Below, piece by piece: positions 2,994 through 39,403 of a stretch of DNA of 39,403 nt. Below the pieces are notes generated by a model that ran no database searches, had not been told where the DNA came from, and saw nothing but the letters and a program-made list of their open reading frames with translations. The first letter of the stretch is position 1. Every line of letters starts with the position of its first letter. The position numbers and the translations under genes were made by a program. The stretch is taken from positions 1 to 39,403 of IMG/VR virus record IMGVR_UViG_3300034019_000927. One strand, given 5' to 3'. This DNA comes from a virus.

Positions 2994-3193
2994 GGGGCCT
3001 CCGGGCGGCTGGGCGCCGCCGTGTCGTGGATGAGGAGAGCGACGGCGCACTTGGGGCAGGGCTCGGATCCGGTCAGGACCGCGAAACCCCGGATCCCGGC
3101 CCAGCGGCCGCAGGCGGTGCGCCAGCGGCCCCCCAGCGTGCGGTTGGTGTCGGTGGGGTGGGGTTGGTGCTGGATGTGCCGGCGCCAGCTCAT
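2990..3193 (-). CDS. Small Cys-containing hypothetical protein, 67 aa
   Basis: Overlaps its neighbours on both sides by four bases (ATGA), which supports translation in the leftward operon. The 67-residue product is basic (MSWRRHIQHQPHPTDTNRTLGGRW) and has CPKC at about residue 46 with a single further Cys upstream (TACGRW), a possible incomplete zinc knuckle. No family is recognised. Confidence 0.5.
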   Translation of the reverse strand: MSWRRHIQHQPHPTDTNRTLGGRWRTACGRWAGIRGFAVLTGSEPCPKCAVALLIHDTAAPSRPEAP

Positions 3194-3432
3194 GCGTGCG
3201 CCTCCACGTAGGCCCGCCCGATTGCCAGTTTCTCGGCGTCAGTCACCGTGATGCCCAGCGCCTGATCGGCGGCGAACAACACGCGCCACGCGGCCCGCTC
3301 GGCGTCCAGCGCTGCACGGTACGCCCGGGGAGCGCGGGGAGCCGCCGCCAGCGCCCGGTTGGCCTCTTCCCAGTTGGCGCGGGCGTGAAGGTAGCGGGCG
3401 ATGACGCGGGCACGACGGGTAGGGCTTGGCAT
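3190..3432 (-). CDS. Small helical hypothetical protein, 80 aa
   Basis: The ATG is at 3432, and the stop overlaps the next ATG at 3193. The 80-residue product is almost entirely predicted helix, dominated by Ala, Arg and Leu (ARYLHARANWEEANRALAAA, AALDAERAAWRVLFAADQAL), with a basic N terminus. It has the look of a two- or three-helix bundle. Function unknown. A perfect stem-loop at 3458-3485 separates it from the upstream gene, so it is the first cistron of a four-gene overlapped cluster (3432 down to 2233). Confidence 0.6.
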   Translation of the reverse strand: MPSPTRRARVIARYLHARANWEEANRALAAAPRAPRAYRAALDAERAAWRVLFAADQALGITVTDAEKLAIGRAYVEAHA

Positions 3433-3457: not shown

Positions 3458-3485
3458 GCCGGGGCTGGTGGCGTCCAGCCCCGGC
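3458..3485 (-). terminator. Perfect 11-bp GC stem-loop after the 3494-3829 gene
   Basis: Left arm 3458-3468 and right arm 3475-3485 are perfectly complementary around a 6-base loop. The hairpin begins 8 bases after the stop of the leftward gene at 3494. No U-tract follows, so it may be a weak or factor-assisted terminator, or an mRNA 3'-end stabiliser or processing site. Confidence 0.5.
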
Positions 3486-3493
3486 GGTCGTGG

Positions 3494-3829
3494 TCAGGCG
3501 GCGAACTGCTTGAGGTAGGCCTTGCGGCGCCGCCCGATGGTCTTGTAGGCGTGCGCCCACGCCTCCTCGAGGGTGGCGAAGCGGGTGGGGTACTGGTGGG
3601 CGCCGAAGTCGCGGCCGTTGCGCGTCTGCTGCACCCGGACGTAGTACCACGTGCCGGCCGGCGCGTCCCAGCAGCCGTAGTCAGCGACCGCCACGTGCTC
3701 GGCGCCGTGCACGTTCACGTAGAGCCCCAGCACTCGGCCCCGCGCGTCGCGGATGTCCTCGAACCGCATGAACTCGTTGGCGTAGGTCTGCACGTTGGTC
3801 TTGCGGGTGTAGGTCGCGGTCGCGGTCAT
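3494..3829 (-). CDS. Hypothetical protein, tandem paralogue A, 111 aa
   Basis: Start ATG 3829 is preceded on the coding strand by AGGATCCCGCC, a strong ribosome-binding site also found before its paralogue. The 111-residue product begins MTATATYTRK and ends KAYLKQFAA. It shares a block with the gene at 3891-4229: PAGTW(Y/F).V.V.QTR.GR, then the P.TFATL(D/E)EA module and the identical C terminus KQFAA. Predicted structure is a small alpha/beta fold with a C-terminal helix. Function unknown. The pair, each with its own leader and following hairpin, looks like a duplicated expression unit. Confidence 0.7.
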   Translation of the reverse strand: MTATATYTRKTNVQTYANEFMRFEDIRDARGRVLGLYVNVHGAEHVAVADYGCWDAPAGTWYYVRVQQTRNGRDFGAHQYPTRFATLEEAWAHAYKTIGRRRKAYLKQFAA

Positions 3830-3854
3830 GGCGGGATCCTCAGTGGGGGGGTGG

Positions 3855-3878
3855 GGGGCCGGCGGTGGTGCCGGCCCC
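3855..3878 (-). terminator. Perfect 9-bp GC stem-loop after the 3891-4229 gene
   Basis: Arms 3855-3863 and 3870-3878 pair perfectly around the loop GGTGGT. The structure begins 12 bases past the stop at 3891 and ends before the ribosome-binding site of the next gene. There is no U-tract; the same layout recurs after four other genes of this island. Confidence 0.5.
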
Positions 3879-3890
3879 GGTGGTGGTGGT

Positions 3891-4229
3891 TCAGGCGGCG
3901 AACTGCTTCGTGTAGGACTTGCGGCGCTGCTCAGTGGCGTTGATGGCGTAGACCTCTGCCTCGTCGAGAGTGGCAAACGTGCGCGGGTGCTGGAGGGGGC
4001 CGTGGCAACGGCCGGCGCGCGTCTGCCGCACGTGCACCTCAAACCAAGTGCCAGCCGGATCGGAGCAGCAGTTGCGCTTGGGGTCGCTGCTGACCTCGTA
4101 AACCACCCGGACAATCGTGCGAAGCACGCCGATCTCGCGGCCGTACTTGTCGGTGATGCCGAACCCGCGAGCATCCGAGCGGATCGTGGACTCTTCGACG
4201 CGGGCGGTGTACGTGATGGCAGCGGTCAT
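3891..4229 (-). CDS. Hypothetical protein, tandem paralogue B, 112 aa
   Basis: First gene downstream of the leftward promoter at 4279-4306. It starts at ATG 4229 behind the same AGGATCCCGCC leader as paralogue A. The 112-residue product begins MTAAITYTAR and shares with paralogue A the DPAGTW.EV.VRQTR block, the HPRTFATLDEAE module and the KQFAA end. It differs in having a Cys pair (KRNCCSDP) and a middle segment RVVYEV. No family is recognised. Such duplicated small proteins near phage control regions are often host-takeover or defence-related proteins, but that is inference. Confidence 0.7.
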   Translation of the reverse strand: MTAAITYTARVEESTIRSDARGFGITDKYGREIGVLRTIVRVVYEVSSDPKRNCCSDPAGTWFEVHVRQTRAGRCHGPLQHPRTFATLDEAEVYAINATEQRRKSYTKQFAA

Positions 4230-4278
4230 GGCGGGATCCTCTTGCGGTGGGTTGAGTACTGCAGCGGTGACAAGGTGG

Positions 4279-4306
4279 AATATACGTCGGGAAGCCTACC
4301 CGTCAA
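4279..4306 (-). promoter_or_regulatory. Leftward sigma70 promoter with operator-like site
   Basis: On the minus strand, TTGACG (4301-4306) and TATATT (4279-4284) are separated by 16 bases, a near-consensus sigma70 promoter reading into the gene at 4229. The bases GGGTAGG begin inside and just after the -35, and the 13-base string CCTACCCGTCAAG (4295-4307, plus strand) recurs exactly at the two other leftward promoters. A bound repressor here would occlude the -35. The surrounding sequence is homologous to the promoter at 5446-5474. Confidence 0.75.
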
Positions 4307-4352
4307 GTACCCTAGCCAACATTTCCTGAACTTTTTTTACCGGGGCGGTGGC

Positions 4353-4559
4353 TTAGGCGCCGGCCAGCGCCAGCACCTGCAGCCGGGACAGCACCCGCCG
4401 CCGGCCCCCCACCTCCACCAGCCACCCCAGCGTCACGGGCACGAAGTCCACCGGCGCCGTGGGGTCGCACGGCCCCTCCACGGCCCCCAGCAGCCGCGCG
4501 CCGGCCTCGGCAAGGCCCCGGGCTACCCCGGGGCTGAACGCGGCCTCCACGGGGCTCAC
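4353..4559 (-). CDS. Small hypothetical protein, 68 aa
   Basis: I start it at GTG 4559, which overlaps the stop of the upstream gene (GTGA); the frame stays open further upstream only as an antisense shadow of that gene. The 68-residue product reads MSPVEAAFSPGVARGLAEAG at its start, then a strand-rich middle (VDFVPVTLGWLVEVGG) and a Leu-rich end. It may be a small alpha/beta protein. Function unknown. Coupling to the previous gene suggests that the two work together. Confidence 0.55.
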   Translation of the reverse strand: MSPVEAAFSPGVARGLAEAGARLLGAVEGPCDPTAPVDFVPVTLGWLVEVGGRRRVLSRLQVLALAGA

Positions 4560-4816
4560 AGCGCCGCCTCGGCGGGCAGCGCCGGCGTGTCGGGGCGGAA
4601 CACCAGCACCTCGTCGCGCGTGGCGCCGAACCACGCGTCCCCGAGCTGGTCGCCGGTCCGGGTGTCGAGGTAGTAAGCCCACCACGATTGGGTCGCGCGG
4701 TCGTAGTACACGGCCATGCGGATGGAGGGGGCGACGGCAATTTGTTGGCGCCATGGACGGGGGCGTGTTGCGGGGCGGGGCGTGCGGCCAGCGTACAGGT
4801 CGGTGGTGGCGGGCAT
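4556..4816 (-). CDS. Hypothetical protein, 86 aa
   Basis: Starts at ATG 4816 and is coupled by overlap to the next gene. It begins with a basic Pro-rich stretch (TDLYAGRTPRPATRPRPWR), followed by a compact strand-rich region with many aromatics (MAVYYDRATQSWWAYYLDTRTGDQLGDAWFGATRDEVL), suggesting a small beta-sheet domain that presents aromatic residues. The second half resembles small phage proteins that bind a partner through a beta sheet, but no specific family is recognised. Confidence 0.65.
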   Translation of the reverse strand: MPATTDLYAGRTPRPATRPRPWRQQIAVAPSIRMAVYYDRATQSWWAYYLDTRTGDQLGDAWFGATRDEVLVFRPDTPALPAEAAL

Positions 4817-4840
4817 GGCGGGCGTCTCGGAGAGGGTGGC

Positions 4841-4863
4841 GGGGGCGGCGGGGTGCCGCCCCC
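4841..4863 (-). terminator. Perfect 9-bp GC stem-loop after the 4874-5062 gene
   Basis: Arms 4841-4849 and 4855-4863 pair perfectly around GGGGT. This 23-base element is identical to the one at 5092-5114. It begins 10 bases after the stop at 4874. No U-tract follows. Confidence 0.5.
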
Positions 4864-4873
4864 GGGGAGAGGC

Positions 4874-5062
4874 TCAGTACTGGAACTTGCCCTTGAGATC
4901 GCGGGCCAGTCCCTTCGCCGCTTGAGCGGCCTTCTCGTATGTCTTGTACGTCTCACCCACCTGCAACCCGGTGAGGAAGTTGAAGACTTCCCAGCCGGTG
5001 ACGTTGTTGCCCGAGAGCAGGACCAACCCACCGAAGACGTAGTTGCGATTGCGAACGGACAT
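4874..5062 (-). CDS. Small hypothetical protein, 62 aa
   Basis: ATG 5062, with a stem-loop upstream (5092-5114) and another downstream (4841-4863), so it looks like a self-contained cistron. The 62-residue product begins MSVRNRNYVFGGLVLLSGNNVTGWEVFNF: two short beta strands, then a Lys- and Ala-rich amphipathic helix (YKTYEKAAQAAKGLARDLKGKF). This resembles a small beta-beta-alpha domain. No family is recognised. Confidence 0.65.
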   Translation of the reverse strand: MSVRNRNYVFGGLVLLSGNNVTGWEVFNFLTGLQVGETYKTYEKAAQAAKGLARDLKGKFQY

Positions 5063-5091
5063 GGTGACTCCGGATTAGAGGGGAGGGTGGT

Positions 5092-5114
5092 GGGGGCGGC
5101 GGGGTGCCGCCCCC
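5092..5114 (-). terminator. Perfect 9-bp GC stem-loop after the 5125-5394 gene
   Basis: Arms 5092-5100 and 5106-5114 pair perfectly around GGGGT, in a 23-base element identical to 4841-4863. It lies 10 bases after the stop at 5125 and just ahead of the leader of the next gene. Confidence 0.5.
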
Positions 5115-5124
5115 GTGGGGGGTG

Positions 5125-5394
5125 TCAGAGGTTGACGCCGTAGATCCGGGTCACGTCCGCGAGGGTCGCGCGGAGATCCTTCTGGGCGTGCTCCATCAGG
5201 TTGGCGTGGATCTTTGCGGTGTTGGTCCACATCAGCGCTTCGAGCTCGTGGCCCGCGCGGCGCGCCCGTGCCGCCTTGAGGCTGAAGCTCGCGCACAGGG
5301 CGTGGTGGCGGTTCAGGTCGGCGTTGAGCTGGGCAATCTTCTGCTCGGTGAACTCGGGGAGGACGATGGCGGCGGGGGCGGTGGCGTTGGTCAT
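5125..5394 (-). CDS. Helical hypothetical protein, 89 aa
   Basis: First gene downstream of the leftward promoter at 5446-5474, with ATG 5394. The 89-residue product starts MTNATAPAAIVLPEF and is then almost wholly helical (EQKIAQLNADLNRHHALC, AARARRAGHELEALMWTNTAKIHANL, AQKDLRATLADVTRIYGV). The pattern fits a three-helix bundle. The opening MTNA is shared with the gene at 5540-5824, but the rest is not clearly homologous. Function unknown. Confidence 0.7.
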   Translation of the reverse strand: MTNATAPAAIVLPEFTEQKIAQLNADLNRHHALCASFSLKAARARRAGHELEALMWTNTAKIHANLMEHAQKDLRATLADVTRIYGVNL

Positions 5395-5445
5395 GGCGGG
5401 CGTCAGTGAACGGTTGGGGTCCAGTACTGCGCGGGTGACAAGTAC

Positions 5446-5474
5446 ATCTTAGCGTCGGGAATCCTACCCGTCAA
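5446..5474 (-). promoter_or_regulatory. Leftward sigma70 promoter with operator-like site
   Basis: On the minus strand, TTGACG (5469-5474) and TAAGAT (5446-5451) are 17 bases apart. The 13-base string CCTACCCGTCAAG lies at 5463-5475. Flanking bases on both sides match the cassette around 4279-4306 (AGTACTGC, GGTGACAAG, CGTCGGGAA, AACATTT), so the two promoters are duplicates with the same likely control. Confidence 0.75.
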
Positions 5475-5505
5475 GTAGTCTACCTAACATTTTCGGTAGA
5501 ATAGT

Positions 5506-5530
5506 GGGGGCCGGTGGTGGGCCGGCCCCC
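5506..5530 (-). terminator. Perfect 9-bp GC stem-loop after the 5540-5824 gene
   Basis: Arms 5506-5514 and 5522-5530 pair perfectly around a 7-base loop. It begins 9 bases after the stop at 5540 and lies upstream of the next leftward promoter, so a role in ending the first leftward transcript is plausible despite the missing U-tract. Confidence 0.5.
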
Positions 5531-5539
5531 GGGCGGTGG

Positions 5540-5824
5540 TTAGGCGACGGCGGCCCACCCCAGCGTCTTGGCCGCGCGCTCCTCCTTGCGCAGCGCGTCC
5601 TCGATGTAGAGGCACGCGGAGAGCAGGTTGGCCTCCGGGTTGATCGCGCTGGCAGCCGTGGCGCGCAGGTACGCGGCCGCGCGGCGGTCGGCCTTGGCCT
5701 GACGGAGCAGCTCCTTGGCGAGCGTCTTCCGGGCGTTCCGCTCGTCGCGCAGCGCGGCGGCGGCCTCGTCGAGGAACTTGGCGGTGCGGGCGGTGCGGGC
5801 GGAGGTCGTGGCGGCGTTGGTCAT
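5540..5824 (-). CDS. Helical hypothetical protein, 94 aa, first leftward gene
   Basis: First gene of the leftward island. ATG 5824 is preceded on the coding strand by GAGGATCCCTTCC, a strong ribosome-binding site; an upstream in-frame ATG at 5911 falls inside the promoter and is unlikely. The 94-residue product is Ala-, Arg- and Glu-rich and predicted all-helical (FLDEAAAALRDERNARKTLAKELLRQAKADRRAAAYL). It is basic overall, so nucleic-acid binding is possible. Immediately upstream are a parS-like site (5849-5864) and a sigma70 promoter (5883-5911). Its function is unknown. Confidence 0.7.
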   Translation of the reverse strand: MTNAATTSARTARTAKFLDEAAAALRDERNARKTLAKELLRQAKADRRAAAYLRATAASAINPEANLLSACLYIEDALRKEERAAKTLGWAAVA

Positions 5825-5848
5825 GGAAGGGATCCTCGAGGCGGGTGG

Positions 5849-5864
5849 TGTTTCACGTGAAACC
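5849..5864. promoter_or_regulatory. parS-like ParB-binding site
   Basis: The 16-mer TGTTTCACGTGAAACC differs from the widely conserved chromosomal parS consensus TGTTTCACGTGAAACA only at the last base and contains the perfect 14-base palindrome 5850-5863. It lies between the leftward promoter (-10 at 5883) and the start of the first leftward gene (5824). No ParA or ParB gene is visible in this genome, so a host ParB would have to recognise it. An accidental palindrome for another regulator is the alternative. Confidence 0.7.
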
Positions 5865-5882
5865 GCGTGGGCGACACAGGAC

Positions 5883-5911
5883 AATCTAGGGCAGGAAAGC
5901 CTACCCGTCAA
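5883..5911 (-). promoter_or_regulatory. Leftward sigma70 promoter in the divergent control region
   Basis: On the minus strand, TTGACG (5906-5911) and TAGATT (5883-5888) are 17 bases apart, reading into the gene at 5824. CCTACCCGTCAAG occurs at 5900-5912, as at the other two leftward promoters. No equally convincing rightward promoter is visible for the packaging genes in this 134-base gap. Confidence 0.75.
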
Positions 5912-5936
5912 GGGGTCTACTCTACCGGACGGGTAG
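5901..5936. promoter_or_regulatory. Inverted-repeat operator candidate
   Basis: CTACCCGTC (5901-5909) and its exact complement GACGGGTAG (5928-5936) face each other across 18 bases. One arm overlaps the -35 of the leftward promoter, the other faces the packaging genes. A CTACTCTAC string occurs twice nearby (about 5917 and 5946). This is consistent with a repressor controlling both directions, though the protein is not identified. Confidence 0.55.
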
Positions 5937-5958
5937 GGAACTGACCTACTCTACTCGC

Positions 5959-14385: not shown

Positions 14386-15711
14386 GTGGCAAACCCGATT
14401 CTGATCACCGACACGGAGCTGCAGGGCAACCTGAAGAACGTGTACGCCGACATCCGGCAGCAGCTCTTCCCGATCAGCACCGTCCTGCTGGCCCAGATCA
14501 AGAAGGCCGGCCCGGGCGGGCTCCGCTCCCTCAAGTGGGGCGGGCGCAACGTGTACTTCGACGTGGTGGTGAACCCGCCCGTCAACTGGGGCGCCTCGGA
14601 CGCCGGCTACCTGCCGAACAGCTCCGAGACGACCGAAGTGCAGGGCAACGTCGGCATCCGGCGCTTCTACGTGACCCGCGAGTTCGACAACCTCGGCATT
14701 CTGGGCACGCAGTCGAAGCAGGCGGCCTTCACCAGCCTGAAGGCCAAGATCACCGAGGAGATCGACGGCGCCATGCAGCTCGGCATGCAGGAGCACGTGC
14801 ATGGCAACGGGCTCGGCATCCGCGCCATCGTCTCGTCCTACTCGGCCGGCCCGCCGGTCACCATCGTGGCGACCAGCCCCTACGGCGTCTCCGGCGCCGG
14901 TCAGGGCGGGCTGTGGCTGTACCCCGGGATGCTGATCGCGGTGCGTGACGCGACCGGCGCCACGCTGCGCGGGCGGGCGACCGTGACGGCGGTGTCGAAC
15001 TCGGGCGACAACGTCACCCTGACGCTGTCGGCCGCCATCAGCGGCACCACCGGGACCGACATCATCGTGGCGGCGACGGCCAACGACGATGCGTACAACC
15101 AGTACGCGAACGGGCTCATCAACATCACCAACCGGGGCGGGTCGTACAACACCCTCCACGGGATCAACGCTGGCACGGCGGGGCAGGAGCGGTGGAACGC
15201 CGTGCGGTTCACGGCGGGCACCGACACCGACGACGCGGCCAACCCGAACGAGATGGACGCATGGAAGCTGGGCGCCACCATCGGCGCGCGCAGCGGCAAG
15301 CGCCCGCTTTCGAGCCCGGACGAGTTCCTGTGCCTCACCACCTACGGTGTGCAGCAGAAGCTCATCGAGTCGTTCCTCGCGCAGCGGCGCTTCAACGTCA
15401 CCGGCGGCGAGGAGCTGGAGCTCAACGGCGGGTACAAGGCGCTCAAGCTGCACGGGATGGCCGTGGTGGCCGACGAGTACAACCCGGCCGGCACGTTCTA
15501 CATGGTCCACAAGCCGTCGCTGGCGTGGGTGGACGCGGCCGACTGGTCGCCGGTGCAGTACGAGAACTCGGGGGCGGTGCGCTTCATCGACGGGCGCGAC
15601 GCCTTCCAGACCAGCTTCAAGGTGTACTTCAACCTGATGACCTTCCAGCGCAACGCGCACGGGTCCATCGTCGGGTACGCCGACACGCAGCGCTACACCC
15701 CGGTGGTCTAA
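14386..15711 (+). CDS. Major capsid (coat) protein
   Basis: The 441-residue protein starts at GTG 14386, behind GGAG. Early residues (LKNVYADIRQQLFPISTVLLAQIKKAG, LKWGGRNVYFDVVVNPPVNW) suit an HK97-fold N-arm and E-loop, the region of about 145-230 is a strand-rich insertion (VTIVATSPYGVSG, GRATVTAVSNSGDNVTLTLSAAI), and the C-terminal part resumes the P- and A-domain pattern (DEFLCLTTYGVQQKLIES, GTFYMVHKPSLAWVDA). The insertion recalls the I-domain of P22-type coat proteins. Position after scaffold and the perfect hairpin downstream (15725-15751) fit a highly expressed capsid gene. Confidence 0.88.
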   Translation: MANPILITDTELQGNLKNVYADIRQQLFPISTVLLAQIKKAGPGGLRSLKWGGRNVYFDVVVNPPVNWGASDAGYLPNSSETTEVQGNVGIRRFYVTREFDNLGILGTQSKQAAFTSLKAKITEEIDGAMQLGMQEHVHGNGLGIRAIVSSYSAGPPVTIVATSPYGVSGAGQGGLWLYPGMLIAVRDATGATLRGRATVTAVSNSGDNVTLTLSAAISGTTGTDIIVAATANDDAYNQYANGLINITNRGGSYNTLHGINAGTAGQERWNAVRFTAGTDTDDAANPNEMDAWKLGATIGARSGKRPLSSPDEFLCLTTYGVQQKLIESFLAQRRFNVTGGEELELNGGYKALKLHGMAVVADEYNPAGTFYMVHKPSLAWVDAADWSPVQYENSGAVRFIDGRDAFQTSFKVYFNLMTFQRNAHGSIVGYADTQRYTPVV

Positions 15712-15724
15712 ACCCTGACGGCGC

Positions 15725-15751
15725 GGGGTGGGGGTGACGAGCCCCCACCCC
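15725..15751 (+). terminator. Perfect 10-bp GC stem-loop after the coat gene
   Basis: Arms 15725-15734 and 15742-15751 pair perfectly around a 7-base loop, 13 bases after the coat stop and 16 before the next ATG. No U-tract is present. It may be a partial terminator, or a stabiliser that keeps coat mRNA abundant relative to downstream genes. Confidence 0.6.
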
Positions 15752-15767: not shown

Positions 15768-16199
15768 ATGCTGAACTTCTTCTCGCCACGCCCCGGGCGT
15801 TTCGGGATCCAGCCGGTCATCATCCAGCAGCGCATCAACACCGGCACGCTGGCGGCCGGTACGCAGACCCACAACCTCGGCGGACTGCCCCACAAGGCCA
15901 TCATCAGCGCGGTGCAGGTGTCGGCCGATACGTATCCGACCGCCGCGACCAACTGCACGGTCACGCTGGTCAAGCGGGACGCCTCGGCGGCTGGCAACGT
16001 CACGCTCAGTTCGGCCATCGACATCAACGCGAAGACGGCCGAGACGGTGCAGGCCGGATCGCTGCTCACCACCCTCACCGACGCGCAGCGTCTGCTCGAC
16101 ACGGGCGACACCGTCAAGATTTCGCTGGTCACGACCGGCGCGGTCTCGGTGCAGCCCGACGACCTCGTGGTCACCGTCGAGCTGCAGTACCTCTACTAG
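15768..16199 (+). CDS. Head decoration-like protein, 143 aa
   Basis: ATG 15768 lies directly after the coat gene and its hairpin. The 143-residue product begins MLNFFSPRPGRFGIQPVIIQQRINTGTL and is beta-rich and Thr/Ala-rich throughout (HKAIISAVQVSADTYPTAATNCTVTLVKRD, VKISLVTTGAVSVQPDDLVVTVELQYLY), suggesting a compact beta sandwich. Small beta-sandwich proteins immediately after the coat gene are often capsid decoration proteins. That role is inferred from position and fold-like pattern; a neck protein is the alternative. Confidence 0.65.
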   Translation: MLNFFSPRPGRFGIQPVIIQQRINTGTLAAGTQTHNLGGLPHKAIISAVQVSADTYPTAATNCTVTLVKRDASAAGNVTLSSAIDINAKTAETVQAGSLLTTLTDAQRLLDTGDTVKISLVTTGAVSVQPDDLVVTVELQYLY

Positions 16200-34684: not shown

Positions 34685-34941
34685 GCGACGTGACCGAGAA
34701 GACCGTTCACGACATCCCGGTGTCGATGACGGTCGGCGCGAGCGGTAAGCTGCTGGTGCTGACGGCCGCCGGCAACATGTGGGAGTGGAGCAGCAAGGAA
34801 CGGCGCTGGGGGCGGATGCAGCCGGTGCCGCTGACCATGGCGTGGGACGAGTACATGCAGCAGGCGATGCAGGGGCCGGCGCAGGAGCAGGGCCAGAGTG
34901 ACGACAAGCCGGGTGAGCCGGAGAAAGCGCAGGAGGCATGA
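34681..34941 (+). CDS. Small beta-rich hypothetical protein, 86 aa
   Basis: ATG 34681 overlaps the RecT stop and its stop overlaps the integrase ATG. The 86-residue product begins [37 protein letters not shown]: a strand-rich start with a Trp pair, then a Gln/Glu-rich tail. No domain is recognised. Coupling with integrase would suit an excisionase or recombination accessory, but the sequence lacks a clear winged-helix Xis pattern. Confidence 0.55.
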
Positions 34942-36113
34942 GCGGAGCGAAGGACAAAGGGGCGGGCCACGGGTCCGCCCCTTTGCGTTGGGGGCAGCGG
35001 GTGCGACAGTGGATCCGCCCTGCGGCGGGCGGCGGCCCCATGACCGTGGGCGAGGCGGCCGAGGTGGCGCTGGACCCGGCCACGGGCCGCTGGTCGCGCG
35101 AGACGGGGCACGGGAAGGAGGTGGCGCGCGCGCTGGCGCTGGCGGCTGCACACTGGGGCGCCGACCGGCCGTGGGGCACCCTCACCCGGGGTGACTGGCG
35201 CAGCCTCTGGCGGTGGCGCCTCACCGTGCTGCGCGAGGCCGGCCACGGCGGGCACCGGGGCACCGAGCTGGTGGTGCAGCGCGCCGCCACCGTGGCGCGG
35301 TGGCTGGTGGAGGAGGGCCACGTGGTCCGCATCGTCGGCCCGGAGCGGGAGTGGCGCCTCCGGCTGGCCGAGGACTACCACCGGCTGGCCGGGGACGGCC
35401 CGGAGCCGCGCCGACCCCGCCACACCCTCGAGGAGCTGCGCCGGATCCTGCAGGCGGCGGAACAAGCCGACCCTCGGTTCCGGCTGCTGCTGGCGCTGGG
35501 CGCCGAGCTCCGGCTGGGGCAGGTGGTGCGCTGCCGGCGCCGCGACCTCGACCTGCAGGGGGGCACCCTGACCGTGCGCGGCCGGGGCCGGAAGCGGGGC
35601 GTGGTGGTCGAGCTTACCGCCGGCCAGCAGGCAGCCGCGCTAGAGGCGCTGGAGGGCTATCTGAGCGAGCTGGAGGGCTCAGGGCAGGATTACCCCTTAT
35701 TCCCGTGCGGACAGCTTCCCGGGGGCCGCAGCGGGGCAGCACGGGCCTGTCCCACCCGGCACCTGTCCGCGCGCCCGGTTGGCCGGCGGTGGGTGGTGGC
35801 CCAGTTCGCGATGGTGGAGGCGGCTGCCGGCGTGCCGCACCGCCCGGGCCGGGGGGCGTATGGGATCCGGCGCGCGGCGGTGGACGCGGTGAAGGCGCTG
35901 GGGGTGTCGCGCGAGGGGCTGATGGCGCACGGCGGCTGGACGGACACGGCCGTCCCGGACCGCATCTACGCCGAGCAGCAGGCCGAGTACGCGCGGGCAG
36001 AGGCCGCACGCCTACGGGCGCGCGTCCGAAACGAACGACGATGGGCCAGCGAGGAGTTGAACCTCGGACCTCACGCTTATCAGACAGGGGATGCGAAGAA
36101 CTCACCGCACTAG
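34938..36113 (+). CDS. int: Tyrosine-type integrase
   Basis: Site-specific recombinase of 391 residues. The N-terminal arm and core-binding regions (about 30-150) contain the SAM-like helix TVLREAGHGG...ELVVQRAATVARWLVEEGHV. The catalytic domain starts near 160 and shows box I Arg192 (GAELRLGQVVR), a basic beta-hairpin (RGRGRKR, candidate Lys219), box II Arg311 in AYGIRRAAVD, His331 (AHGGW) and nucleophile Tyr344 (RIYAEQ). The usual box II His is Tyr308. Residues 369-382 are encoded by the attP core, so the protein's C terminus changes on integration. It integrates the phage into host tRNA-Ile(GAU). Confidence 0.88.
   Translation: MSGAKDKGAGHGSAPLRWGQRVRQWIRPAAGGGPMTVGEAAEVALDPATGRWSRETGHGKEVARALALAAAHWGADRPWGTLTRGDWRSLWRWRLTVLREAGHGGHRGTELVVQRAATVARWLVEEGHVVRIVGPEREWRLRLAEDYHRLAGDGPEPRRPRHTLEELRRILQAAEQADPRFRLLLALGAELRLGQVVRCRRRDLDLQGGTLTVRGRGRKRGVVVELTAGQQAAALEALEGYLSELEGSGQDYPLFPCGQLPGGRSGAARACPTRHLSARPVGRRWVVAQFAMVEAAAGVPHRPGRGAYGIRRAAVDAVKALGVSREGLMAHGGWTDTAVPDRIYAEQQAEYARAEAARLRARVRNERRWASEELNLGPHAYQTGDAKNSPH
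36042..36083 (-). other. attP core: 3' half of tRNA-Ile(GAU)
   Basis: Read on the minus strand, these 42 bases match the 3' half of tRNA-Ile: anticodon loop CTGATAA (36077-36083), anticodon 3' stem GCGTG, variable AGGTC, T-arm with 5-bp stem CGAGG/CCTCG around TTCAACT, acceptor strand CTGGCCC and discriminator A. The next bases 5' on this strand (CCTGT) do not pair with GCGTG, so identity ends at the anticodon loop, as in phages that integrate into tRNA genes and restore the 3' end. The core lies inside the integrase coding sequence. Confidence 0.85.
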
Positions 36114-36219: not shown

Positions 36220-36296
36220 GCCCCCCGTCTGCAGGGTGCCGTCCGCCGACACCCCCCTTGCTCGGCGCGACGGACTCCACCCCTGCAGCGGGGGGC
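36220..36296. other. Large nested inverted repeat before the initiator gene
   Basis: Outer arms 36220-36238 and 36278-36296 pair over 18 of 19 bases with one bulge on each side. Inside, GTCCG (36241-36245) pairs with CGGAC (36271-36275) and CCGA (36246-36249) with TCGG (36262-36265). The structure ends 15 bases before the initiator ATG. It is much longer than a usual terminator and has no U-tract. Possible roles are a replication or regulatory cruciform, or an RNA element controlling the initiator. Confidence 0.65.
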
Positions 36297-36311
36297 TATG
36301 CTTTGGACCCT

Positions 36312-36776
36312 ATGCCGAACCTGTGCATCATCCCGGCCCGGGCGTTGTTTGATCCGGAGCTGACCTATCCCCAGCTCCGCGCGCTGCTGGCGGTAGGACT
36401 CCATACGGACCGCTATGGCGACAACGTGTGGGCCTCGAACTCCACGCTGGCGGTCGAGGCGCGCATGGACGTGCGCGACCTCCGTCGATGCCTCCGTGAG
36501 CTGGAGGAGATGGGCTACCTGTCGCGTATTCGGCGGGTGCACCCCGGCGGCGGGACCGCCACCAGCCTCATCTCGGTGCGGCTGGACGACCCCATCCCGA
36601 CGGAGCCCGTGGTGGCGCAGGTGGGGGGAGGGTCAACGCTACCCTCCCCCCGGGGGGGAGGGGTCGTGGACCCCGGGGGGGAGGGGCCCGGTACCCCTCC
36701 CGGGGAGGGGTCCGGAGCCCCGGGGGGGGAGGGGTCCGGGCCCCCTCCAAACGACCCCAATAAACGACCCCAGTGA
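36312..36776 (+). CDS. Replication initiator (lambda O-like), winged helix
   Basis: I start at ATG 36312, since the open frame upstream to 36258 runs through the stem-loop. Residues about 15-75 form a winged helix (LTYPQLRALLAVGLHT, NSTLAVEARMDVRDLRRCLRELEEMGYLSRIRR), as in O-type initiators and helix-turn-helix replication proteins. The C-terminal 45 residues are low-complexity (Gly, Pro, Glu) because they are encoded by the GC iterons, which suggests that the gene carries its own origin, as in lambda O. It would bind the iterons and recruit the helicase via the downstream genes. The C-terminal domain that should follow is not in this frame; see the downstream gene. Confidence 0.75.
   Translation: MPNLCIIPARALFDPELTYPQLRALLAVGLHTDRYGDNVWASNSTLAVEARMDVRDLRRCLRELEEMGYLSRIRRVHPGGGTATSLISVRLDDPIPTEPVVAQVGGGSTLPSPRGGGVVDPGGEGPGTPPGEGSGAPGGEGSGPPPNDPNKRPQ
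36623..36651. other. Perfect 11-bp stem-loop at the left edge of the iterons
   Basis: GGGGGGAGGGT (36623-36633) and ACCCTCCCCCC (36641-36651) pair perfectly around a 7-base loop, within the initiator coding sequence. It abuts the first iteron and is part of the same structured block. Confidence 0.7.
36649..36742 (+). other. Candidate replication origin: GC iterons inside the initiator gene
   Basis: Four copies of a (C)3-4 G4-8 AGGGG unit, most followed by TC, begin at about 36649, 36671, 36699 and 36718. They are followed by the less GC-rich stretch 36747-36780, with an 11-base direct repeat. Iterons inside the initiator gene next to an easily opened segment match the layout of the lambda origin. 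The initiator would bind the repeats and melt the neighbouring region. Simple low-complexity expansion is the alternative. Confidence 0.6.
36749..36772 (+). repeat. Direct repeat AAACGACCCCA x2 beside the iterons
   Basis: AAACGACCCCA occurs at 36749-36759 and 36762-36772, two bases apart. It is the least GC-rich stretch in the origin candidate and ends at the initiator stop codon, so it could be the duplex-unwinding side of the origin. Confidence 0.65.
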
Positions 36777-39244: not shown

Positions 39245-39403
39245 CGGAAGCCGAGGCGTGGCGCGAGATCGCGCGGCGGATCGTGGAAGGGGAGTGGTCA
39301 AGGCTTGAGCTGTGCTATGACGCGCACAAGCTATACCTCCAATCTCAGATAGACCGTCCACTCTCTGTAAAGATGCGCGAGCGCCTTGAGCAACATATAG
39401 GAC
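39241..39403 (+). CDS. Small hypothetical protein, 5' part (continues at 104-195)
   Basis: ATG 39241 overlaps the stop of the glycoside-hydrolase-like gene. The frame runs off the window end and continues, through the identical overlap, to the stop at 193-195; the complete product is 84 residues. The product is helical, Glu- and Arg-rich, with one Cys (LELCYDAHKLYL). Function unknown. Its AT content is higher than its neighbours' in the stretch 39310-39403. Confidence 0.75.
   Translation, partial: MTEAEAWREIARRIVEGEWSRLELCYDAHKLYLQSQIDRPLSVKMRERLEQHIG
39301..39403. repeat. Terminal direct repeat, right copy
   Basis: Exact copy of bases 1-103. See the left copy for interpretation: circular-assembly overlap, since a gene reads through it in frame. 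Confidence 0.9.

Follow-up and report, generated by a model that had tools for sequence, protein, structure and literature searches.

Hairpins behind the small leftward genes and the capsid gene

The viral record IMGVR_UViG_3300034019_000927 (39,403 bases, analysed over its whole length and hereafter called the window) encodes a terminase, a portal and a major head protein, and carries between about 2,805 and 5,825 a block of small leftward genes, five of which are each followed by a GC-rich stem-loop shortly past the stop codon (H1-H5); a sixth such element (H6) lies behind the major capsid gene. Strands are given here as those of the transcript carrying the hairpin, and sequences as 5' arm-loop-3' arm. 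On the minus strand, H1 (3458-3485, GCCGGGGCTGG-ACGCCA-CCAGCCCCGGC, 11 base pairs (bp), loop 6) is placed 8 nucleotides (nt) past the stop of the gene at 3494-3829 and 25 nt ahead of the ATG of 3190-3432, and H2 (3855-3878, GGGGCCGGC-ACCACC-GCCGGCCCC, 9 bp, loop 6) 12 nt past the stop of 3891-4229 and 25 nt ahead of the ATG of 3494-3829, both with no U in the next 8 nt. They are followed upstream by H3 (4840-4864, CGGGGGCGGC-ACCCC-GCCGCCCCCG, 10 bp, loop 5), 9 nt past the stop of 4874-5062 and 23 nt ahead of the ATG of 4556-4816, and by H4 (5092-5114, GGGGGCGGC-ACCCC-GCCGCCCCC, 9 bp, loop 5), 10 nt past the stop of 5125-5394 and 29 nt ahead of the ATG of 4874-5062, each with a single U in the next 8 nt. 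H5 (5506-5530, GGGGGCCGG-CCCACCA-CCGGCCCCC, 9 bp, loop 7) starts 9 nt past the stop of 5540-5825 and is succeeded by the tail ACUAUUCU (4 U in 8) and then by a predicted promoter (P2). On the plus strand, H6 (15725-15751, GGGGTGGGGG-TGACGAG-CCCCCACCCC, 10 bp, no U in the next 8 nt) lies 13 nt past the stop of the major capsid gene (14386-15711, assigned by phrog_14242) and 16 nt ahead of the ATG of 15768-16199.

The five genes ahead of H1-H5 are all encoded on the minus strand. Those at 3494-3829 and 3891-4229 are paralogues (~40% identical) with a hairpin after each copy, the gene at 4874-5062 has no family match, that at 5125-5394 no confident one, and that at 5540-5825 is the 3' part of an open reading frame (ORF, 5540-5911) read from an in-frame ATG near 5824, its start being provisional. 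On the mRNA, the 5' arms of H1-H5 are G-rich, the loops consist mostly of C and A, and the flanking bases include much C and little G (around H2, 23 C to 4 G). Over 23 nt the inner part of H3 (4841-4863) matches H4 exactly, and identity is 92% across the 39 nt around them. Between H1-H4 and the next gene a ribosome-binding site (RBS) follows the stem, which gives the layout stop-hairpin-RBS-ATG.

A preliminary description of the locus had listed H1-H5 as perfect GC stems of 9 to 11 bp with similar loops, two of them identical over 23 bases, at 8-12 nt past the stops of leftward genes. Our coordinates bear this out (8, 12, 9, 10 and 9 nt; loops mostly of C and A), save that the stem placed at 4841-4863 has a tenth pair (4840-4864) and that the list, correct as far as it went, missed H6. 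The absence of U-tracts that it reported applies to H1-H4 (0-1 U) and does not to H5, whose 4 U in 8 nt nevertheless fall below a 5-of-8 rule. Its remark that overlapped gene pairs lack hairpins is also accurate for the GTGA/ATGA-overlapped pairs 4556/4353, 3190/2990 and 2990/2805, yet these pairs have no spacer to hold one.

Chance expectation and fold stability

Perfect stems of at least 9 bp number 10 in the window, whereas 20 first-order Markov shuffles had 2.65 on average and never more than 5; the ten include H1-H5, H6 and one situated 13 nt past another stop. When folded with their flanks, as the preliminary description had advised, H1-H5 are all more stable than dinucleotide shuffles (z -5.9, -4.3, -3.8, -5.0 and -3.2, respectively). 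A search of the window against Rfam returned no match, and a terminator scan demanding a U-tract (at least 5 U in 8 nt) called none of H1-H6 (0-1 U in H1-H4 and H6, 4 U in H5). The elements therefore share with canonical intrinsic terminators the GC-rich stem-loop after a gene but not the U-tract right after the stem, and H1-H4 and H6 have the form of U-less (I-shaped) terminators, i.e. a stable stem-loop after a gene and no U-tract. A perfect 11-bp stem at 34955-34985 (CAAAGGGGCGG...CCGCCCCTTTG), 13 nt past the stop at 34939-34941 and at or inside the 5' end of a recombinase-like ORF, may be the same kind of object.

Conservation of pairing in related contigs

With the terminase as query, five related contigs were 70-78% identical, a further one 51% and another remote, and bacterial genomes gave no prophage relatives. 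The layout, which the preliminary description had proposed to look for in related phages, was found in three of them: L003 carries GGGCCGCGTGGAGCGGCCC after two small genes, with an ATG 22 nt further on; L004 carries GGGCCGCGTGGAGCGGCCC after a homologue of the paralogous pair 3494/3891; and the 51% relative has AGGGGCGGC-ACTCCC-GCCGCCCCT 11 nt past a stop and 21 nt ahead of an ATG. L003 and L004 have the promoter region and the hairpin-RBS segment in common, with a different first gene in between, and in L002 the promoter motif is present and the small-gene block missing. Judged from these contigs, relatives keep the layout with varying stem sequences.

Behind the major head protein gene, a stem of 11-13 pairs occurs in all four related contigs that hold the gene. 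In the 51% relative (IMGVR_UViG_3300007734_000718) there are two different major head proteins, which share 56% and 49% identity with that of the window, and both genes (L113, 7309-8616; L115, 8459-9778) are followed by a hairpin. As the MAFFT alignment of the capsid-gene spacers was out of structural register, pairs were taken from individual folds. Counted from the base of the stem, position 4 is G-C or A-U, position 5 U-A, G-C or A-U, and position 7 G-C, G-U or U-A; all pairs are standard in the five distinct capsid-gene stems, and several are changed on both sides. These folds indicate that the capsid-gene hairpin is conserved as a structure through compensatory changes. Within the window, H1 and H2 (behind paralogous genes) differ by one compensatory U-A / C-G exchange (GGGGCUGG/CCAGCCCC vs GGGGCCGG/CCGGCCCC), the rest of the stem being shared.

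Recurrence in unrelated viral contigs

A scan of public viral contigs with the pattern GGGGCGGCAC-n2-5-GCCGCCCC yielded at least 119 stretches, 80 of which were listed, and the figures of this section refer to the matches listed. A hairpin was counted when it lay 4-20 nt past the stop of an open frame of at least 50 codons. Fifty-six of 74 distinct hairpins were so placed on at least one strand (19/74 on the strand carrying the AC loop, 40/74 on the opposite one and 3 on both), compared with 8.7% of random positions per strand; in many, an RBS and an ATG follow about 20 nt further on. Sixteen upstream genes, all on the AC-loop strand and chosen after setting aside frames too short to be genes, were compared with PHROGs; eight of the 16 encode capsid, decoration or tail proteins, namely six major head proteins, one major tail protein and one head decoration protein, this last assignment being less sure since two frames overlap there. 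The stems behind major head protein genes of unrelated phages start 6-9 nt past the stop.

The U content after these stems ranges from 0 to 7 of 8 nt, and the U-less hairpins of the window therefore appear as the extreme of a series that runs on to ordinary terminators. As the GGGGCGGC stem pattern is absent from the three bacterial genomes carrying the presumed attachment site (see below), it is not a host repeat. The arrangement is thus not peculiar to this phage, and its recurrence is broader than could be seen from the window. A literature search on terminators behind capsid genes, with all terms combined, found none.

Predicted promoters and transcription units

Three promoters are predicted in the scanned region, all on the minus strand (at 5911, 5474 and 4306) and all sharing TTGACGGGTAGG, where shuffled sequence would give 0.4: P1 (5883-5911, TTGACG-17-TAGATT), P2 (5446-5474, TTGACG-17-TAAGAT) and P3 (4279-4306, TTGACG-16-TATATT). 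They would divide the block into a unit of one gene, a unit of four (5125, 4874, 4556 and 4353), and a unit of 3891, 3494, 3190 and onward. H5 lies at the end of the first unit, ahead of P2, and its U-rich but interrupted tail probably makes it the most terminator-like of the five. H1-H4 lie within the multi-gene units, with no predicted promoter between them and the next gene, and the second unit (after 4353) has no hairpin at its end. Going by promoter prediction only, on which the units themselves depend, H1-H4 would not be full terminators if the genes behind them are expressed from these promoters. It had been proposed that the hairpins make each small gene a separately dosed unit; with three predicted promoters and four of the five hairpins inside multi-gene units, this goes too far, and these four would therefore be partial ends at most.

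The P1 region (5900-5937) contains the motif GACGGGTAGG with an inverted copy 18 nt away, and a close version of this motif stands ahead of the first leftward gene in L002. The TTGACGGGTAGG sites at 5900-5937, 5446-5474 and 4279-4306 are possibly a common operator. Searched singly, two of the small genes gave no relatives, a three-sequence profile matched only a contig already known, and the promoter motif used as a 15-mer gave mostly unrelated matches. Among named phages, DNA similarity was confined to 100 coding bases within 4556-4816 shared with Pseudomonas phages, a match that has nothing to do with the hairpins.

Genome and presumed host

A direct repeat of 103 nt, identical at both ends (1-103 and 39301-39403), suggests that the record is probably a complete genome, circular or terminally repeated. 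Directly behind an ORF that weakly matches a tyrosine recombinase (34938-36113), a segment of 43-44 nt (36040-36083) is identical to the 3' part of tRNA-Ile(GAT), both in two Gemmatimonadaceae genomes and in a contig labelled as Chthoniobacterales. It is probably a phage attachment site and as such suggests a temperate phage whose host probably belongs to Gemmatimonadaceae; our literature search found no characterised phage of Gemmatimonadota. JACCWE010000038.1 (L105/L106) and JACDGM010000072.1 (L102/L104) carry two copies each of the 43-nt attachment core, of which only one per contig is within a tRNA-Ile gene, as would be expected had a further element inserted there, and the Chthoniobacterales label of the latter may be a binning error. 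Both Gemmatimonadaceae genomes encode Rho, RNase E/G and PNPase, and their sampled contigs (genes called by a simple script) have stems past stop codons that include classical U-tract terminators. By gene content, then, the factors needed for termination or for an exonuclease barrier are present in these two genomes of the presumed host family, and such bacteria use U-tracts. Elsewhere in the window, several overlapping stems arise from short G- and C-run repeats at 36620-36750 (GGGGGGAGGGGTC...), at the end of an ORF (36258-36776) that matches a helix-turn-helix weakly.

Interpretation and alternative explanations

Taken together, these observations lead us to regard H1-H6 as probably being intercistronic 3'-end hairpins, acting by partial termination, as a barrier to exonucleases, or both. 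We favour this interpretation because the element recurs behind structural genes of high dose, appears conserved as a structure and is poor in U. The RNA-level device suggested in the preliminary description is accordingly well supported (by the compensatory changes, by the H1/H2 difference and by the recurrence in related and unrelated phages).

A ribosome with the stop codon in its A site covers about 10 nt downstream, and an initiating ribosome about 20 nt upstream of the start. The start of the stem would thus approximate the front edge of the terminating ribosome and its end the back edge of the next initiating one; fitting between the two footprints, the stem could therefore stay folded while both genes are translated. 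In such a position the hairpin would fix where the upstream message has its 3' end. A share of the transcripts would stop at the stem or just past it (by partial termination, possibly aided by Rho or Nus factors), or ends might be formed by cleavage in the unstructured C/A-rich spacer. Exonucleases moving 3' to 5' would then be halted by the stem, while the remaining transcripts would continue into the next gene. For the gene ahead of the stem (capsid or small early gene) this would mean more message, or a more stable one, than for its downstream neighbours. The 3'-end stabiliser and the partial terminator are two live versions of this proposal, not separable from sequence alone.

Several points weigh against the interpretation as 3'-end hairpins. 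Hairpins are missing after two genes that possibly need a high dose (e.g. 4353, the last of the second unit), and the promoters and units are predictions only. The covariation is a hand count over five distinct sequences with no formal statistic, and the scan of viral contigs used one stem sequence and the matches listed, so that its proportions may not generalise.

The main competing explanation, to which we assign a minor though appreciable likelihood, is that the hairpins are plain intrinsic terminators of the I-shaped type, whose sole job is the incomplete stopping of RNA polymerase. It accords with their location directly after genes, with the same stem being followed by tails of 0 to 7 U in the unrelated phages listed, with the partial U tail of H5 ahead of a promoter and with the precedent in the early region of phage phiC31. 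On the other hand, H1-H4 and H6 have only 0-1 U in 8 nt, genomes of the presumed host family do have U-tract terminators, four hairpins precede genes that have no predicted promoter of their own, and no hairpin follows 4353, where the second unit ends. For mycobacterial RNA polymerase, moreover, a U-tract requirement in vitro has been reported (cited in PMC5335608).

Considerably less probable is an effect on translation like that described for the repetitive extragenic palindromic (REP) sequences of Escherichia coli, in which the hairpin would stall the last ribosome and lower the expression of the upstream gene. All five stems (H1-H5, at 8-12 nt) do lie within the 15 nt of the stop codon at which REP sequences down-regulate (PMC12306157), but in unrelated phages the stems are found 6-9 nt behind major head protein genes, whose products are needed in the largest amounts. 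Membership of the REP family itself was rejected, as the hairpins form no repeated palindrome family with a common motif (only H3 and H4 are alike).

We consider it similarly doubtful that the hairpins act at the DNA level, as short shared segments where small genes are gained, lost or exchanged. H3 and H4 share 39 nt at 92% though their genes are unrelated, L003 and L004 keep the same promoter region and hairpin-RBS segment around a different first gene, and L002 lacks the small-gene block; the other hairpins of the window, however, differ in sequence, and the capsid-gene hairpin keeps its pairing as its sequence changes, which an exchange driven by homology would not need. A role as an exchange boundary may be a side effect.

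Least probable of all is the RNase cleavage site that had also been envisaged, at least of the RNase III type: location between genes of multi-gene units recalls the processing sites of T7-like early messages, but an RNase III site is a long duplex of about 20 bp, and stems of 9-11 bp with small loops are short for one, on which ground it was rejected.

A more far-reaching idea, namely that the hairpins typify a general phage device, fitted between ribosome footprints and independent of transcription termination across many unrelated phages, seems to us improbable; were it true, such a device would insulate neighbouring genes and set capsid-to-neighbour protein ratios.

Comparison with known systems

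As palindromes situated between genes at 8-12 nt past stops, the phage hairpins resemble the E. coli REP sequences, which down-regulate translation when placed at most 15 nt from the stop codon (PMC12306157), and they differ from them in lacking a repeated family with a common motif, only two of the five being alike. In the GC-rich Streptomyces clavuligerus, structured 3' ends lacking U are common and have been read as I-shaped terminators or as stem-protected ends of Rho-terminated transcripts (PMC8269248); in H1-H4 and H6, too, a GC stem of high stability is followed by fewer than 3 U in 8 nt. An I-shaped element after tsaD in the alr-groEL1 operon of Mycobacterium tuberculosis, also a U-less hairpin between operon genes, has a partial effect on downstream expression in reporter tests (PMC5335608). 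Both of these systems are bacterial, the former defined by mapped 3' ends and the latter by reporter assays, whereas the phage hairpins are known from their sequence.

Among phages, the T7 terminator Tphi behind capsid gene 10 has a U-run, serves T7 RNA polymerase and lets transcription read through to downstream genes. H6 is similarly a hairpin behind a major capsid gene with genes downstream, but unlike Tphi, with its U-run and phage polymerase, it has no U in the next 8 nt. The closest precedent is the early region of phiC31, whose terminators reportedly lack poly-U tails, as Ingham and colleagues are said to have described in 1995 (cited in PMC8355165 and PMC5335608). There too, the early region of a phage with a GC-rich host contains GC-rich hairpins that lack a U-tract; the differences are that phage and host phylum are others, that termination was tested in phiC31, and that in the window the layout is also found behind the capsid gene.

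Phages need very different amounts of protein from genes that share one message, and hairpins found directly behind capsid and small early genes, at similar distances from stop to stem and from stem to start in unrelated phages, offer a concrete, testable control site, which terminator finders demanding a U-tract miss. For phages of Gemmatimonadota they give a first hint of how messages may end. Set beside these systems, the arrangement looks less like a new mechanism than like a common means by which message ends and protein dose are fixed.

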